Assembly (NCBI GenBank): GCA_002786855.1
Contig: PCUU01000071.1
Location: 1 to 39,979 of the forward strand
Origin: Cytophagales bacterium CG12_big_fil_rev_8_21_14_0_65_40_12
Lineage (GTDB): Bacteria; Bacteroidota; Bacteroidia; Cytophagales; Cyclobacteriaceae
DNA: 39,979 nt
Reading direction: 5' to 3'
Part shown: positions 35,302 through 39,471 of the stretch, in pieces
Layout of the letters: each line of letters opens with the position of its first letter
How positions within the stretch are numbered: position 1 is the first letter of the stretch
Made by a program: the position numbers and the translations under genes
Notes under the pieces: generated by a model
Database searches by the model: none
What the model was told of the DNA's origin: nothing
Seen by the model: only the letters and a program-made list of their open reading frames with translations

Positions 35302-35447
35302 TCTTATTGTTCATTTGGGGCGTCATCCTTTGATTAATTCGAAAGTGTCTTTTTAGACCCTTCGCAAACTCAGGGAAGAAAACAGGCTAATATGGTCTTA
35401 TTGAACTTGTTCTGTTGACCAATCCTATTAGTTGCACACTCCTTTTT

Positions 35448-35473
35448 ATCCTGAGTGGCAGCGAAGGAACTAA
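35448..35473 (+). repeat. Imperfect 26-base direct repeat, copy 1
   Basis: Matches the copy at 35662-35687 at 22 of 26 positions around the core AGCGAAGGA. Both copies begin ATCC and end CTAA. Confidence 0.55.
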
Positions 35474-35661
35474 TTAAGGAAAGTAATAAGCAAATTTAAG
35501 GCAAGGGAGGCTGGACATTAGTGCCAATTTTTAAGTCCAATGTAATTTAGAGCAGTCATTCCGCAGGAATCTTTTCACGAATCACAAATCAATTCCTACT
35601 GCATAACTGAAAAAGACCTCTTCAAGGTGACTTAGCATACGCTTTTAGCCGCTTCACCTTC

Positions 35662-35687
35662 ATCCCGATTGGTAGCGAAGGAGCTAA
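35662..35687 (+). repeat. Imperfect 26-base direct repeat, copy 2
   Basis: Second copy of the repeat with core AGCGAAGGA. It also forms the right arm of a stem-loop with 35643-35658 (TTTTAGC pairs with GCTAAAA) and ends seven bases before the 40-bp palindrome. Confidence 0.55.
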
Positions 35688-35693
35688 AAATCT

Positions 35694-35733
35694 GTATACA
35701 TAATTTTCTTATGCATAAGAAAATTATGTATAC
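35694..35733. promoter_or_regulatory. Perfect 40-bp palindrome over the padR promoter (candidate operator)
   Basis: The 20 bases 35694-35713 (GTATACATAATTTTC then TTATG) are the exact reverse complement of 35714-35733, with no spacer. Symmetry stops at both ends (T and T). The right end overlaps TATACTTG (35729-35736), one base from the -7 consensus TAnnTTTG, and the padR ATG follows at 35740. A repressor bound here would block the promoter, so autoregulation by the PadR protein is the simplest reading (inference). Each half contains a GTATACATAA-type sub-site. Confidence 0.8.
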
Positions 35734-35736
35734 TTG
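35729..35736 (+). promoter_or_regulatory. Candidate -7 element TATACTTG for the padR operon
   Basis: Seven of the positions relevant to TAnnTTTG fit except the first T of TTTG. It ends 3 bases before the ATG at 35740, the same spacing as for galE, and overlaps the right edge of the palindrome. The TTG inside is in frame with padR but is more probably promoter than start codon. Confidence 0.45.
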
Positions 35737-35739
35737 TGC

Positions 35740-36078
35740 ATGTCATCAAGTAAACTGCTTAAAGGAAGTCTAGCCACCATTATTCTCAAGTTATTAGAAG
35801 AGAATGAAAAAATGTATGGCTACGAAATCACTCAAAGGGTTAAAGAGATCACGGCAGGTGAATTCAAGATCACCGAAGGTGCCCTTTACCCTTCTCTACA
35901 TAAATTAGAAGCCGAGGGCCTGCTCTCTACCGAAACCCAAATGGTAGAAAATAGAGTAAGAAAATATTACTCGCTTACCAAAGAAGGCAATGCCGAAGCA
36001 CATACCAAAGTGGCTGAACTCGAAGACTTTCTAGTGAACCTTCAAAAATTGTTGAACCCAAAACTTGGCTTAGGATGA
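35740..36078 (+). CDS. PadR family transcriptional regulator
   Basis: A 112-residue winged-helix repressor of the short PadR-s2 type. The whole domain is recognisable: LLKGSLATIILKLLEEN, KMYGYEITQRVKEITAGEF, the wing/recognition region ITEGALYPSLHKLEAEGLL, and RKYYSLTKEGN, then a short dimerisation helix. ATG 35740 is preferred to the TTG at 35734, which lies in the presumed promoter. Its stop overlaps the next ATG (ATGA), the first of five membrane-protein genes. In known systems short PadR proteins repress a neighbouring membrane protein or transporter and themselves. The ligand or signal is unknown. The 40-bp palindrome directly upstream is the likely operator. Confidence 0.94.
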   Translation: MSSSKLLKGSLATIILKLLEENEKMYGYEITQRVKEITAGEFKITEGALYPSLHKLEAEGLLSTETQMVENRVRKYYSLTKEGNAEAHTKVAELEDFLVNLQKLLNPKLGLG

Positions 36079-36773
36079 AACTTAGTCAGGAACAGCACGA
36101 GCAAATAGTATTCCATTTGCAGCATTTGGATATTGACTCTCAGGAGTTATTCGAAGAATTCTATGATCATATTGTCAGTTCTTATGAAAAGCATTTACAG
36201 GTTAATCCCGACCTGAGTCTTAAATCTCATATATGGGATTACTTACAGCCAGAGTTTGGGGGAGTGGGTGGTTTCAAAGATGTGATCAAGAAACACGAGA
36301 AAACCATCGCTTGGAATGTAAGCAAGAAAATTGTAATCACTGCCTTATCAGCATTCAAAGGCAAAAATCTTCTCTACTCTGCAGGAGTATTTCTCTCAAC
36401 TTGGGGTCTAATGGCAACTTCTAAAAACCTAACCGTCATGGTTGGTTTAATCATTGCCTGCTTTTGTATTCCTATGACCATAGTAATTAAAAAACATTAT
36501 CAGTTCAAAAAATCATTACGAGAAAGTAATCCTGGTTATTACCGAAACCTGCGCAATGGCACAATTATGCTGTACACTACGCTGTCTTTGTCTACACTTT
36601 ATAACCTTGGGCATCTTGTCAGCAAAAGTCTAGACAGTCATGCTGGATTTAACCATCTATATACTCAGACCGCACTGTTTCAAGCAACCTTAATTGGCCT
36701 CGCCATACTCTACTGCTATACTATGCTCACAGTAATGAAACATGATTTCAAAACCAAACTACTGACAACATGA
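36075..36773 (+). CDS. PadR-linked four-helix membrane protein, paralogue 1
   Basis: A 232-residue protein without a described function that I recognise. The N-terminal about 90 residues are soluble and helical, with LSQEQHEQIVFHLQHLDI, then ELFEEFYDHIVSSYEK (residues about 24-39) and LQPEFGGVGGFKDVIKKHE. Four predicted transmembrane segments follow at about 97-116, 119-138, 161-182 and 200-222. The FEEFYDHI motif, FGG turn and overall layout recur in the next two genes. It begins inside the padR stop (ATGA) and ends in another ATGA with the next gene, so all are translationally coupled. It is the longest of the five. A membrane sensor or anti-regulator partner of PadR is possible (inference). 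Confidence 0.8.
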   Translation: MKLSQEQHEQIVFHLQHLDIDSQELFEEFYDHIVSSYEKHLQVNPDLSLKSHIWDYLQPEFGGVGGFKDVIKKHEKTIAWNVSKKIVITALSAFKGKNLLYSAGVFLSTWGLMATSKNLTVMVGLIIACFCIPMTIVIKKHYQFKKSLRESNPGYYRNLRNGTIMLYTTLSLSTLYNLGHLVSKSLDSHAGFNHLYTQTALFQATLIGLAILYCYTMLTVMKHDFKTKLLTT

Positions 36774-37450
36774 GCCTAACCACCACACAGCATGATGTAT
36801 TAGTAAAGTACCTCAAGGATGTAGGCATTAGAAATCAAGAGCCTTTCGAGGAGTTTTACGACCACATTGTAACCGCCTTTGAAAAAAGTGATATTACCGA
36901 TATTAGGTTATTTATCAAAGAAGTGATTGAACCAGCTTTTGGCGGTGAAACAGGGATTCAAAAAATTCTTAAAGAAGATTCTAAATCAGTCACAAGGCAT
37001 TACCGAAAAGTAATGAGAAGGAAAATCATTTCTTACTTCAATGGGTACTTAGTAGTGATCCCTTTGAGTTTATTTCTTCTGATCTATCTATCCTTCACAT
37101 TAGCAGAACCCAAGAAGATTCTCGCATGGATATTGATTCTGACATCTACCCCGCCAATGGTCTTCTCTATTTATTTGTTTTTAAAATTCAGAATTCACTC
37201 AAAGCGAAATAAAACACAGTTCAAACCCTCACTCAAACATGAGGAATTACATAGGCTAAGTGTTATTGGGCTGTTTACTCTAATCTTACACAACATTCTT
37301 TTACTGGATGTGGAAGCGAATATGCTCAATGAATGGCTCATAACATGGCTTCCCATCTTGGCCTTTAGTTTTACTGTTTTCAGTCTATTATCTCTCAGCT
37401 GCATTCGGTTAATAAAGGAAGAAATCGTACCTAAACTGATTATCCAATGA
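36770..37450 (+). CDS. PadR-linked four-helix membrane protein, paralogue 2
   Basis: A 226-residue paralogue of unknown function. The N-terminus SLTTTQHDVLVKYLKDVGI and QEPFEEFYDHIVTAFEK are followed by EPAFGGETGIQKILKED, then four hydrophobic segments at about 93-112, 118-140, 162-182 and 190-216. The first about 34 residues match paralogue 3 at 26 positions, and the underlying DNA is also very similar at the start, pointing to a relatively recent tandem duplication or gene conversion limited to the N-terminal domain. The membrane parts have diverged strongly. Both ends overlap neighbours by four bases (ATGA). Confidence 0.8.
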   Translation: MSLTTTQHDVLVKYLKDVGIRNQEPFEEFYDHIVTAFEKSDITDIRLFIKEVIEPAFGGETGIQKILKEDSKSVTRHYRKVMRRKIISYFNGYLVVIPLSLFLLIYLSFTLAEPKKILAWILILTSTPPMVFSIYLFLKFRIHSKRNKTQFKPSLKHEELHRLSVIGLFTLILHNILLLDVEANMLNEWLITWLPILAFSFTVFSLLSLSCIRLIKEEIVPKLIIQ

Positions 37451-38133
37451 GCCTAACCACAGCACAGCACGATATATTGGTGAAGTACCTCAAGGAGATA
37501 GAAATCAAAACTCAGGAGCCTTTCGAAGAATTCTATGATCATATTGCTACAGCAATTGAAAAAGAGCAACCTGACGACATTAATGAATTTATAAGGGAAG
37601 TTATTCAGCCCTCTTTTGGGGGAGTAAAAGGGATCAAAAGAATATTACTCAATCAAAGAGAGTTGAGACAAAAGCTCATATGGAAAAGGGCAAAAAAGAT
37701 ATTCTGGAGTCTTTTTGGATGGCCATCAATTGTGCTTATAATGATCGGTTTTATACTCGTTCAAATTAGTTTTAATCAATTCGGTCTAAAATTCACTATG
37801 GGATTAACGCTAAGCTTGGGTTTGTTTTTACCTTTCCTTATTTACTTGATTGCAGCTATACGGTTATTTATTTTATTTGGATATGAGAACAAACCCTATA
37901 ATAGTACAGAATCTTTAAAAGCAATTTTCACTCTTATCCATTTACCTATCGCTCTACTTAATGTCCTAAATTTCTTGATTGTGCCGATCATATTTGGTCG
38001 AGGGGCTTTTACCACTTTCTTACTCAATAATGTTTGGGCAAACACTTTGCTATGCGCTTTTGCCCTCCTTTATGGCTTTACCTGCTTAAAGCTTCTGAAA
38101 GAGAACTTCACCTTTAAACTAGAGTTGAAATGA
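37447..38133 (+). CDS. PadR-linked four-helix membrane protein, paralogue 3
   Basis: A 228-residue paralogue of unknown function. SLTTAQHDILVKYLKEIEI and QEPFEEFYDHIATAIEK nearly repeat paralogue 2, followed by QPSFGGVKGIKRILLNQ. Four membrane segments lie at about 91-110, 114-142, 158-180 and 194-216. The cytosolic linker before the first helix is strongly basic (RQKLIWKRAKK), which fits an inside location for the N-terminal domain. ATGA overlaps join it to both neighbours. Confidence 0.8.
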   Translation: MSLTTAQHDILVKYLKEIEIKTQEPFEEFYDHIATAIEKEQPDDINEFIREVIQPSFGGVKGIKRILLNQRELRQKLIWKRAKKIFWSLFGWPSIVLIMIGFILVQISFNQFGLKFTMGLTLSLGLFLPFLIYLIAAIRLFILFGYENKPYNSTESLKAIFTLIHLPIALLNVLNFLIVPIIFGRGAFTTFLLNNVWANTLLCAFALLYGFTCLKLLKENFTFKLELK

Positions 38134-38774
38134 AACTAGCACACTATCAAATCGAGCATATCAAGGCTTATATAGAGGATCAGGGCATTTGTTACTACGA
38201 TGTTCGGGATGAATTAGTAGACCATATTGCCTCTTCTGTTGAAGATGGTATGAGCAGAGAAAACTTGACCTTTGCAAAAGCATTTGCCCAAAGTATTGAG
38301 GCTATAAATTGCAAAACCATACAGCGCAAGAGAATGCAAGCTTCCACTTATGCCGTACATCGCGAACTGCTGAGAGAATTGGTGGCCACATCAACAAGCA
38401 TTCGAATTCTGGCTTTGGGGTTTATCTTTGGGGTTTGTTATCTCATATTCAATAGCGCATTACCCACGGAAAGTGTTGTGAAACTGTTAAAGACTTTAAG
38501 CATATGTGCTGTTATAATCCCTCTGTTACTCTCCCTCTTCGATAGAAAAAATAGGCCTTATAACTACACAGCATTTATCAGCATCTTCAACACTTTATTC
38601 CTTTATGTTATTATTCTAAATGGTGCAGAAAACCATGGTGCCCTTGACGGTCTCAAACTTCAACCTCTGTTCTACCCCATTTACTTTACTATTATTTTCA
38701 CCTGTATTTACTTAAGCTATTCTATTGCCTTTAAACAGTATCAAAAAATAAAGAACCATGTCGCTTACCGTTGA
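38130..38774 (+). CDS. PadR-linked four-helix membrane protein, paralogue 4 (divergent)
   Basis: A 214-residue, more divergent member. The N-terminal domain reads LAHYQIEHIKAYIEDQGI, then CYYDVRDELVDHIASSVED, so the motif is VDHIAS instead of YDHIV/A, and the FGG turn is absent. Four hydrophobic segments lie at about 92-111, 116-136, 147-164 and 178-198. A similar N-terminal pattern (EQI..I..YI...GI.Y.D.R.E..DHIAS.IE) is, to my knowledge, seen in uncharacterised Bacteroidota membrane proteins. It overlaps the previous gene by four bases and the next by 17. Function unknown. Confidence 0.78.
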   Translation: MKLAHYQIEHIKAYIEDQGICYYDVRDELVDHIASSVEDGMSRENLTFAKAFAQSIEAINCKTIQRKRMQASTYAVHRELLRELVATSTSIRILALGFIFGVCYLIFNSALPTESVVKLLKTLSICAVIIPLLLSLFDRKNRPYNYTAFISIFNTLFLYVIILNGAENHGALDGLKLQPLFYPIYFTIIFTCIYLSYSIAFKQYQKIKNHVAYR

Positions 38775-39432
38775 GCAAATAGCAGCAATCAAAGCCTTTA
38801 TTAATAAGCGCGGCTTTAATACCATTGAGGTGGAGATGGAAATTCTAGACCACGTTGCCTCTGCGGTTGAAGCCAAATTAGAAGCAGACCCTAAAAAGGC
38901 ACTAGAAAAGGCAATTCAAGAAGTTCATGCTGGTTTTGGTGTATTTGGTTTTGCTACTATTGAAGAGGAAAAAGCAAAATACTTCCATACCATAATAAGG
39001 AAGCAGTTATGGAAAGAGCTTAAAAATTACTTTGTAGGTCGTAAAATTTGGATTACCCTCTTAACGCTATTCACGTTATCCCTATCGACAAAATGGTTTC
39101 TTTCAAATGAAATTTATTTGAGAACTTTTCCTTTTGCCGCGGGTATTGTACTTGTAATCTACGCATACCTCACCAACTACTTAAAGTATAGGAAGTGGAG
39201 GAACCGGTCATTGATGCTCTCAGTGGCAGGGCTACCTTTGTTAGTTCTTCAACCTAATCTTGGAAATTTTATCGGGATCATATCTGAAGAAGTTGCCGCG
39301 TCAAATACCTTGTTAGCATCAGGACTTTACGTAGGTCTATTTCTGTTGATGATTATTGCCACCTTAGCAATCAAGGATACAATGACATGGGCTTTTCACT
39401 GGACCAATGAGCGATATTTGAAATACGCCTAA
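38758..39432 (+). CDS. PadR-linked four-helix membrane protein, paralogue 5
   Basis: A 224-residue last member of the array. The N-terminus SLTVEQIAAIKAFINKRGF is followed by EVEMEILDHVASAVEAKLE, the LDHVAS form of the motif, and by HAGFGVFGFATIEEEKAKYF, which keeps an FG turn like paralogues 1-3. Four predicted membrane segments lie at about 95-115, 121-142, 149-173 and 184-206. It starts 17 bases inside paralogue 4, a longer overlap than the ATGA used elsewhere in the operon. Its stop is at the A-run of a hairpin that terminates the convergent GH3 gene. Function unknown. Confidence 0.78.
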   Translation: MSLTVEQIAAIKAFINKRGFNTIEVEMEILDHVASAVEAKLEADPKKALEKAIQEVHAGFGVFGFATIEEEKAKYFHTIIRKQLWKELKNYFVGRKIWITLLTLFTLSLSTKWFLSNEIYLRTFPFAAGIVLVIYAYLTNYLKYRKWRNRSLMLSVAGLPLLVLQPNLGNFIGIISEEVAASNTLLASGLYVGLFLLMIIATLAIKDTMTWAFHWTNERYLKYA

Positions 39433-39471
39433 AAAAATGCCATTGACCTATCCGAAGATTGATCAATGGCA
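39431..39471 (-). terminator. Rho-independent terminator for the minus-strand GH3 gene
   Basis: TGCCATTGA (39438-39446) pairs with TCAATGGCA (39463-39471) around 16 bases. The seven A bases at 39431-39437 give a T7 tail on the minus strand, so it works for the GH3 gene. On the plus strand no T-run follows, so it gives only a stem after the padR operon. The tail overlaps the last two bases of paralogue 5. Confidence 0.75.

Follow-up and report, generated by a model that had tools for sequence, protein, structure and literature searches.

In HAAS-PadR systems, a stand-alone padR gene adjoins a gene whose product combines an N-terminal cytosolic three-helix domain with several transmembrane (TM) helices (Ravi et al., 2024; PMC11237479), and the helical domain, attached to a sensor, is believed to control whether PadR is retained or released (PMC11237479; PMC12419801). 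Fusions with four TM helices are mentioned in that account and release of PadR on a membrane signal is proposed there; the same 2024 work proposes such PadR/helical-adaptor pairs as an alternative to histidine-kinase two-component systems (PMC11237479). In the accessible sections of this literature we found no direct test of signal transfer in these pairs. The PadR protein LltR of Listeria represses its own operon, in which the next gene, lmo0600, encodes a DUF1700 multi-spanning membrane protein; in the lltR* mutant lmo0599-lmo0601, the DUF1700 partner included, are up 107- to 151-fold (PMC6624303). Here we describe a padR-led operon in contig PCUU01000071.1 of Cytophagales bacterium CG12_big_fil_rev_8_21_14_0_65_40_12 (assembly GCA_002786855.1), of which the whole analyzed stretch of 39,979 nucleotides (nt) is called the window. 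Its padR gene is followed by five membrane-protein genes, M1 to M5, whose products share an N-terminal domain with an Asp-His (DH) motif, whereas the four-helix membrane module differs from member to member. We consider it probable that the locus is an autorepressed array of envelope sensors or protective proteins with exchangeable membrane modules. Its parts are as follows.

35694..35733, no strand: perfect palindrome of 40 bp, candidate PadR operator (20-nt arms, 100% complementary, no loop)
35729..35736, plus strand: TATACTTG, candidate Bacteroidota -7 element with one mismatch to TAnnTTTG, overlapping the right end of the palindrome
35740..36078, plus strand: padR, winged-helix repressor of 112 amino acids (aa), PF03551
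36075..36773, plus strand: M1, 232 aa, alpha class, FGG type, cytosolic DH domain plus membrane module
36770..37450, plus strand: M2, 226 aa, alpha class
37447..38133, plus strand: M3, 228 aa, alpha class (AlphaFold2 mean pLDDT 84.8)
38130..38774, plus strand: M4, 214 aa, beta class, a class mostly of 213-215 aa that precedes gamma where both are present
38758..39432, plus strand: M5, 224 aa, gamma class, last positions (AlphaFold2 mean pLDDT 85.5)

The six genes run head to tail on the plus strand (35740-39432) and overlap as an earlier note on this DNA had claimed, four times by the 4 bases of ATGA and once, between M4 and M5, by 17 bases. No product besides padR and the M genes is encoded in the operon. 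The PadR protein matches PF03551 at E 6.2e-22 (77.8 bits, above the Pfam gathering cut-off of 27); its start is the ATG at 35740, with a TTG upstream at 35734. M1 to M5 match one shared profile at E 1.6e-73 to 1.5e-91, the profile being built from these same five proteins. Because members from other Roseivirga genomes, which the profile does not contain, reach E values down to 9.7e-70 against it, the kinship of M1 to M5 is, by profile comparison, beyond chance and the five are paralogs.

The two parts of the M proteins differ in conservation. Over 1378 pairs of Roseivirga members the first 70 residues averaged 30% identity vs 16% in the membrane part, and the N-terminal domain was the more alike in 1349 of these pairs and in 90 of 94 pairs of paralogs from the same locus. 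M2 and M3, for example, are 64% identical in the N part vs 17% in the membrane part. Mean pairwise identities in the alpha, gamma and beta classes were 0.40, 0.65 and 0.51 for the N-terminal helices, 0.27, 0.40 and 0.34 for the cytosolic loop, and 0.29, 0.38 and 0.30 for the tail; over the three classes they ranged from 0.18 to 0.29 in the spans and from 0.12 to 0.17 in the outward segments. The earlier idea of a set of sensors with different inputs thus gains partial support, as it fits a pattern that is constant inside and variable outside. In ortholog pairs where it could be computed, dN/dS was <0.5 in both parts, with the exception of a value of 1.30 in the membrane part of L037_6/L039_7, which has almost no changes.

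The strongest evidence for exchange of the membrane modules comes from close relatives. The upstream CoA-transferase genes are common to the window, R. ehrenbergii (L037), R. seohaensis (L039) and R. echinicomitans (L045), which therefore carry the same locus. Between L037 and L039 the nucleotide identity is 96% in padR and 0.90-0.98 in both parts of the last two members; in M1 it drops from 0.89 in the N part to 0.51 in the membrane part. Synonymous differences (pS) in this gene rise from 0.40 in the N part to 0.75 in the membrane part (Fisher p 1.3e-4), against a background of 0.23-0.27 in the flanking CoA-transferase genes and 0.17 in padR, so that the N part of M1, too, lies somewhat above background. 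In the three-way nucleotide patterns of M1, L037 goes with L039 over the N part (58:22:12) but with the window over the membrane part (40:133:33). Judging from these patterns, M1 is a recombinant gene whose border lies near the domain border. In other genera, L153_7/L165_5 is 0.81 identical in the N part and 0.26 in the membrane part, four other members of these two loci being at 0.89-0.96, and L152_1/L159_1 gave 0.90 vs 0.29 with a padR pS of 0.67. Many other pairs from these genera lacked a significant synonymous difference and two were significantly reversed (p < 0.001). An alignment artefact or a general relaxation was considered as the source of the hypervariability and rejected, given the high identity of the last two members in the same arrays and the fact that synonymous sites differ too. 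We concluded that membrane modules appear to have been exchanged on a constant N-terminal domain, with the clearest case of recombination in one gene and support for it in others. The module exchange makes the locus more interesting than the earlier note had described, and its modularity is the new part.

We then considered the N-terminal domain itself. The DH motif that the earlier note had seen as common to the five proteins held up: D31 and H32 are invariant in M1 to M5 and in a 31-member set. Searched with a profile of the first ∼80 residues, the domain was also found on other proteins (E 6e-17 to 5e-9), namely permease-like proteins of 876-880 aa (with FtsX and MacB domains in L062 and the ADOP model below cut-off in L062-L064), a CPBP/Rce1-type protein, a protein with GldL-like stretches, and proteins of ∼195 aa. 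The ADOP/MacB-like permeases, the CPBP/Rce1-type protein and the ∼195-aa proteins each stand beside a padR gene. A second profile (A5), built with members of these kinds included, matched in 25 of 296 genomes of the phylum, the organism's own included. From the other 24 genomes 25 N-domain loci were examined, three further listed places being left out, and padR adjoins the N-domain gene in 24 of them (upstream in 22 and downstream in 2); L185 is itself a row of the profile, and without it the count is 23 of 24. Because of this linkage we read the DH domain as a putative PadR-contacting adaptor. Among 29 loci of the order found with the whole M profile, padR lies inside the 3-4 kb stretch in 11; the arrays of the remaining 18 run towards the edge, and 15 of these show padR in longer stretches (L090, L093, and L107 were left out). 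The likeness to the PadR-plus-membrane-partner pairs of Firmicutes, suggested in the earlier note, is supported as a layout: PadR and a membrane partner with a cytosolic helical domain, the partner here multiplied in one operon.

Some of the N-domain loci have features of their own. Two other genomes have fusions of the PadR-linked N-terminal domain, one with a CPBP/Rce1-type domain and one with a protein that has GldL-like stretches (L050:3999-5066 and L053:186-995). The two loci in which padR follows the N-domain gene (L187:722-1770 and L208:2305-3356) come from two genomes of one genus. The organism's own genome has a second, solitary padR-adaptor pair, with a partner of 196 aa (L172:1741-2747, G000:C71).

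The region upstream of padR contains a candidate operator. The earlier note had started its span at 35694, which is wrong as a coding start: 35694-35733 is the perfect palindrome, whose end is six bases from the padR ATG. The palindrome scores 20; when 31 stretches upstream of padR in other loci were shuffled, none of the 620 single-base shuffles reached 11. Its 18-bp core, TTTCTTATNNATAAGAAA, stands before padR in all 15 Roseivirga loci examined; 14 of the inner 18 symmetric positions form a complementary pair in all 15 loci, and 248 of 270 cells are complementary. The organism's own genome has one exact TTTCTTATNNATAAGAAA site. Allowing up to 2 mismatches gave 10 forward sites vs 7 in the reversed control, and the inexact sites therefore look like chance; a wider PadR regulon acting through the same site was rejected on the single exact core. 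The genome holds 13 PadR matches (12 over the cut-off), and in the upstream stretches of 11 of the 12 other matches (the twelfth is near a contig end) a palindrome of this kind was absent. Of 20 other loci of the order, 13 have TTCTTATG before padR and 3 have its mirror, CATAAGAA. The ends of the conserved core read ATAC/GTAT, and published PadR sites, as far as the accessible text gives them, have ATGT/ACAT and TACT/AGTA repeats (PMC3506622; PMC5050560). We predict that the palindrome is likely the PadR operator. At its right end TATACTTG or TATATTTG is found in 12 of the 15 Roseivirga loci, and one or the other is near the padR start in 10 of the 20 other order loci; both are at most one base off TAnnTTTG, the Bacteroidota -7 consensus. 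A repressor bound at the palindrome would thus cover the promoter. The earlier note had named split transcription, with padR on another message than the array, as a result that would refute its reading, and on this point the sequence evidence is weak. A full Bacteroidota-type promoter pattern is absent inside the operon, but it is also absent at the promoter of padR itself. Two lone -7-like boxes lie inside the operon, together with sigma-70-like matches on the plus strand that start at 36694, 38587, 39020, and 39356; for the region as a whole, seven sigma-70-like matches were found vs 12.7 expected. In L051, a single-partner locus, padR has a long but different palindrome before it, with 18-nt arms and one mismatch (upstream of 5341 on the minus strand).

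By hydropathy, the plan of four membrane helices proposed in the earlier note applies to M2, M3, and M4; M1 showed two helices and M5 three at the threshold used. In the AlphaFold2 models of M3 and M5, three short helices are followed by a long one towards the membrane and then by helices that fit four spans. In M2 to M4 the positive residues of the tail and of the loop between spans 2 and 3 fit an N-in, C-in orientation. The earlier note could name no transporter or enzyme for the five proteins, and the annotated family that would have refuted its reading did not turn up, as no Pfam or NCBIfam cut-off was reached by M1 to M5. Assignment to a named family was tried with Pfam, NCBIfam, and PADLOC and dropped, nothing usable being returned for the five. 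An ABC-transporter identity was rejected likewise, because the Pfam matches are weak, below cut-offs and not common to all five (ABC2_membrane_5 for M4, E 0.004; DUF7789 for M2, E 0.0015; MpPF26 for M1, E 0.0059). PADLOC anti-phage models at E up to 0.1 gave nothing for M1 to M4 and only weak partial matches for M5 and PadR, and a sequence search for homologs of solved structure gave none that was convincing (best E 0.079).

The relation to HAAS and to the permease prefix was examined with curated models. M1 to M5 had no sequence match to HAAS (PF22564) or HAAS_TM (PF08006), HAAS models were absent among the 25 of 29 families listed for 28 N-domain members, and HAAS searches of the organism's own genome at E up to 1 found matches only elsewhere. 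A profile-profile comparison with HAAS, as the earlier note had proposed, was made against 24 HAAS domains that other genomes in the class encode and was negative: the score was 13.6 over six aligned columns vs 10.5 in the reversed control. A second comparison was negative too, and the link was rejected. The nearest curated model is perm_prefix_1 (NF038403), a permease prefix, found at E up to 1 in 9 of the 28 N-domain members (best 6.6e-5) over a stretch that contains the DH motif; the same N-terminal domain occurs on ADOP-like permeases in the relatives studied here. None of M1 to M5 matches this model, for which the curated cut-off is 30 bits. Array-type relatives score 14-27 bits against it, L052 (E 4.8e-4) and L197 (E 2.7e-5) are both under the cut-off, and in 148 genomes of the order the cut-off was passed by one protein only, of 880 aa. 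We concluded that the locus appears to work like a HAAS-PadR system, whereas membership in the HAAS family is unsupported by the curated models. It differs from the HAAS-PadR systems in its domain, which HAAS Pfam models do not recognize, in having one PadR at the head of 1-11 partners, in its exchanged membrane modules, and in its conserved palindromic core; partner arrays are unmentioned in the accessible part of the HAAS-PadR account (PMC11237479). The Listeria LltR operon, from another phylum, has one DUF1700 partner and a DUF4097 exoprotein and no array (PMC6624303). No description of PadR-led membrane-protein arrays was found in the open-licence literature as far as its text was available.

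A maximum-likelihood tree of 53 Roseivirga members separated an alpha group of 27 rows, comprising M1 to M3 and their kin from the first positions, from the rest with support of 100/99. The remaining rows form a beta group of 13 (11 of them of 213-215 aa; M4) and a gamma group of 13 from the last positions (M5). Finer placements in the tree are unsure because of long branches, of which the program warned. Beta stands before gamma wherever both are present; among the 15 Roseivirga loci L043 and L047 are without beta and L038, L040, L044, and L046 without gamma. The 17-base overlap recurs at the beta/gamma border in 6 of the 15.

The arrangement is widespread. The organism's genome belongs to the genus Roseivirga (Bacteroidota, Cytophagales), and a padR-led locus was present in 14 of 18 Roseivirga congeners searched, those without it being G001, G008 (84% complete), G011, and G017 (80% complete). 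The 15 Roseivirga loci, with the window's own, have 5, 4, 3, 7, 2, 8, 2, 4, 4, 3, 2, 4, 1, 2, and 2 members. Five copies, to which the earlier note had attached weight, are accordingly not a special number: the genus has 1-8, and L152, from another genome of the order, has eleven after padR with other genes interspersed. Across the order the M profile matched in 126 of 390 genomes and 53 of 129 genera, part of these matches being other proteins with the same N-terminal domain; this survey scored seven candidates per genome, so that its copy numbers are lower bounds. Among the order loci fetched, which were chosen for strong matches, padR is followed by two or more members in 19 of 20. Arrays beyond the order include one of three members in Croceitalea (Flavobacteriales; L071) and some of up to four elsewhere in the phylum.

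Several loci show interruptions or damage. Two genes break the eleven-member array at L152:9070-10738; one codes for another membrane protein and the other is presumably alpha/beta-hydrolase-like. In three relatives (L049:3328-4055, L156:10828-11405, and L157:5629-6206) a two-gene insert lies between padR and the array, which we take to be a DUF433 and DUF5615 (PIN-like) pair. Split, shortened or stop-bearing members occur at L155:7227-7918, L162:8108-8884, L167:6420-7093, and in L044 near 5500, a sign of turnover. An array-type protein was also found on a 3-kb contig labelled uncultured Cellulomonadaceae (L069:97-783), which is probably mis-binned Bacteroidota.

Beyond the operon and its operator, a direct repeat of 29 nt (35445-35473 and 35659-35687, 83% identical) lies in the part of the window that separates padR from the CoA-transferase genes. 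Downstream of M5 lies one further feature.

39438..39471, no strand: hairpin between convergent genes (15-nt arms, 87% complementary, 4-nt loop)

From its sequence and place it is possibly a transcription terminator; a terminator scan of the region did not have this hairpin among its results.

We propose the following mechanism. The six genes would form one autorepressed operon, with PadR bound to the palindrome over the promoter and keeping expression low; autorepression is plausible here because the Listeria lltR* mutant raises its own operon. The DH domain of each M protein would serve as the adaptor that contacts PadR. By analogy with HAAS-PadR, an envelope signal such as a membrane-active compound or damage may change the membrane module, whereupon the adaptor would remove PadR from the operator and the operon would activate itself. 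The M proteins probably combine sensing with a protective effector role, since the operon encodes no other product and the genome has a single operator core. Module exchange and copy gain or loss may serve to keep the repertoire changing.

Several observations weigh against this scheme. The difference in conservation alone is no proof of diversifying selection, because the membrane or outward parts of many membrane proteins evolve faster. Thirteen gene pairs, picked after the identity comparison, were put to the synonymous test (p values uncorrected for multiple tests), and the membrane part was the more divergent in four (L037_1/L039_1, L037_3/L039_3, L037_5/L045_3, and L037_6/L045_4), the N part in four (L037_6/L039_7, L037_7/L045_4, L039_8/L045_4, and window_1/L037_1), with no significant difference in five; the synonymous divergence of the L037_6/L039_7 membrane part is only 0.02. 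On this split the genes are mosaic in both directions and the membrane part is not always the faster one. L211, the weakest N-domain match, is without padR in its stretch, and a PDB fold search with the models gave no match. As to the operator, the outer arms seemed to co-vary by eye, a notion that was given up because they covary no more than shuffled arms (325 of 2000 shuffles were as high). Mismatch-free arms of at least 17 nt occur in 7 of the 15 Roseivirga sites, the rest being shorter or imperfect, and in the 20 loci of the order beyond Roseivirga the long dyad is mostly absent, with the exception of L158 (19-nt arms, two mismatches). Since the arms lack covariation and a long perfect dyad is present at only about half of the sites, the case for the operator is its conserved symmetric core.

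Other explanations were compared with the proposed array of sensors or protective proteins. The M proteins may be plain PadR-repressed effectors of membrane remodelling or resistance, with PadR itself binding an inducer, as is supposed for LmrR-type PadR-s2 proteins, and the N-terminal domain serving assembly of M proteins with each other. This would suit a PadR of only 112 aa, since small PadRs with a proposed multi-drug site have been described (PMC3506622; PMC5050560), and an operon without any other effector. The N-terminal domain is, however, kept beside padR on unlike partners (permease-like, protease-like, and small proteins), which argues that its partner is PadR rather than another M protein, and we regard the explanation as unlikely. 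Quite unlikely, in our estimate, is a hetero-oligomeric membrane complex of fixed composition (alpha-n, beta, gamma) that acts as one sensor or channel to control PadR. The three classes in conserved order, with beta before gamma, and the 17-base beta/gamma overlap in 6 of 15 loci would be expected of it, but 1-8 members occur within the genus, 2 of 15 loci lack beta and 4 of 15 lack gamma, and membrane parts that diverge or get replaced are hard on a fixed interface.

A neutral birth-and-death array with a weakly constrained membrane part, having little functional meaning beyond padR control, would account for broken members in relatives, such as the split last gene of L155 and the stop in the last gene of L162, and for gene pairs without a difference between N and membrane parts. 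It is at odds with dN/dS <0.5 in both parts of the computable ortholog pairs (1.30 in the one exception), with intact overlapping frames, and with the conserved order and operator core, and we consider it very improbable. The autorepressed array can also be given a more far-reaching form: a diversity-generating locus for envelope surveillance, in which a constant PadR-binding adaptor is recombined with changing four-helix modules and strain-specific sensors double as membrane immunity proteins against the pore-forming or membrane-active weapons of competitors, under one self-limiting repressor. Orphan immunity gene arrays of Bacteroidales (acquired interbacterial defence) are likewise tandem variable protective genes with turnover between strains; they differ from the present locus, which has one constant adaptor domain and a dedicated PadR. 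We put this extended form forward as a speculation that is rather unlikely to hold.

The PadR-led arrays amount to a natural experiment in which one repressor and one operator are combined with many modules on the same adaptor, and in which close relatives are set apart by single modules. Should the modules respond to different compounds, part swapping would be a bacterial route to altered envelope sensing.

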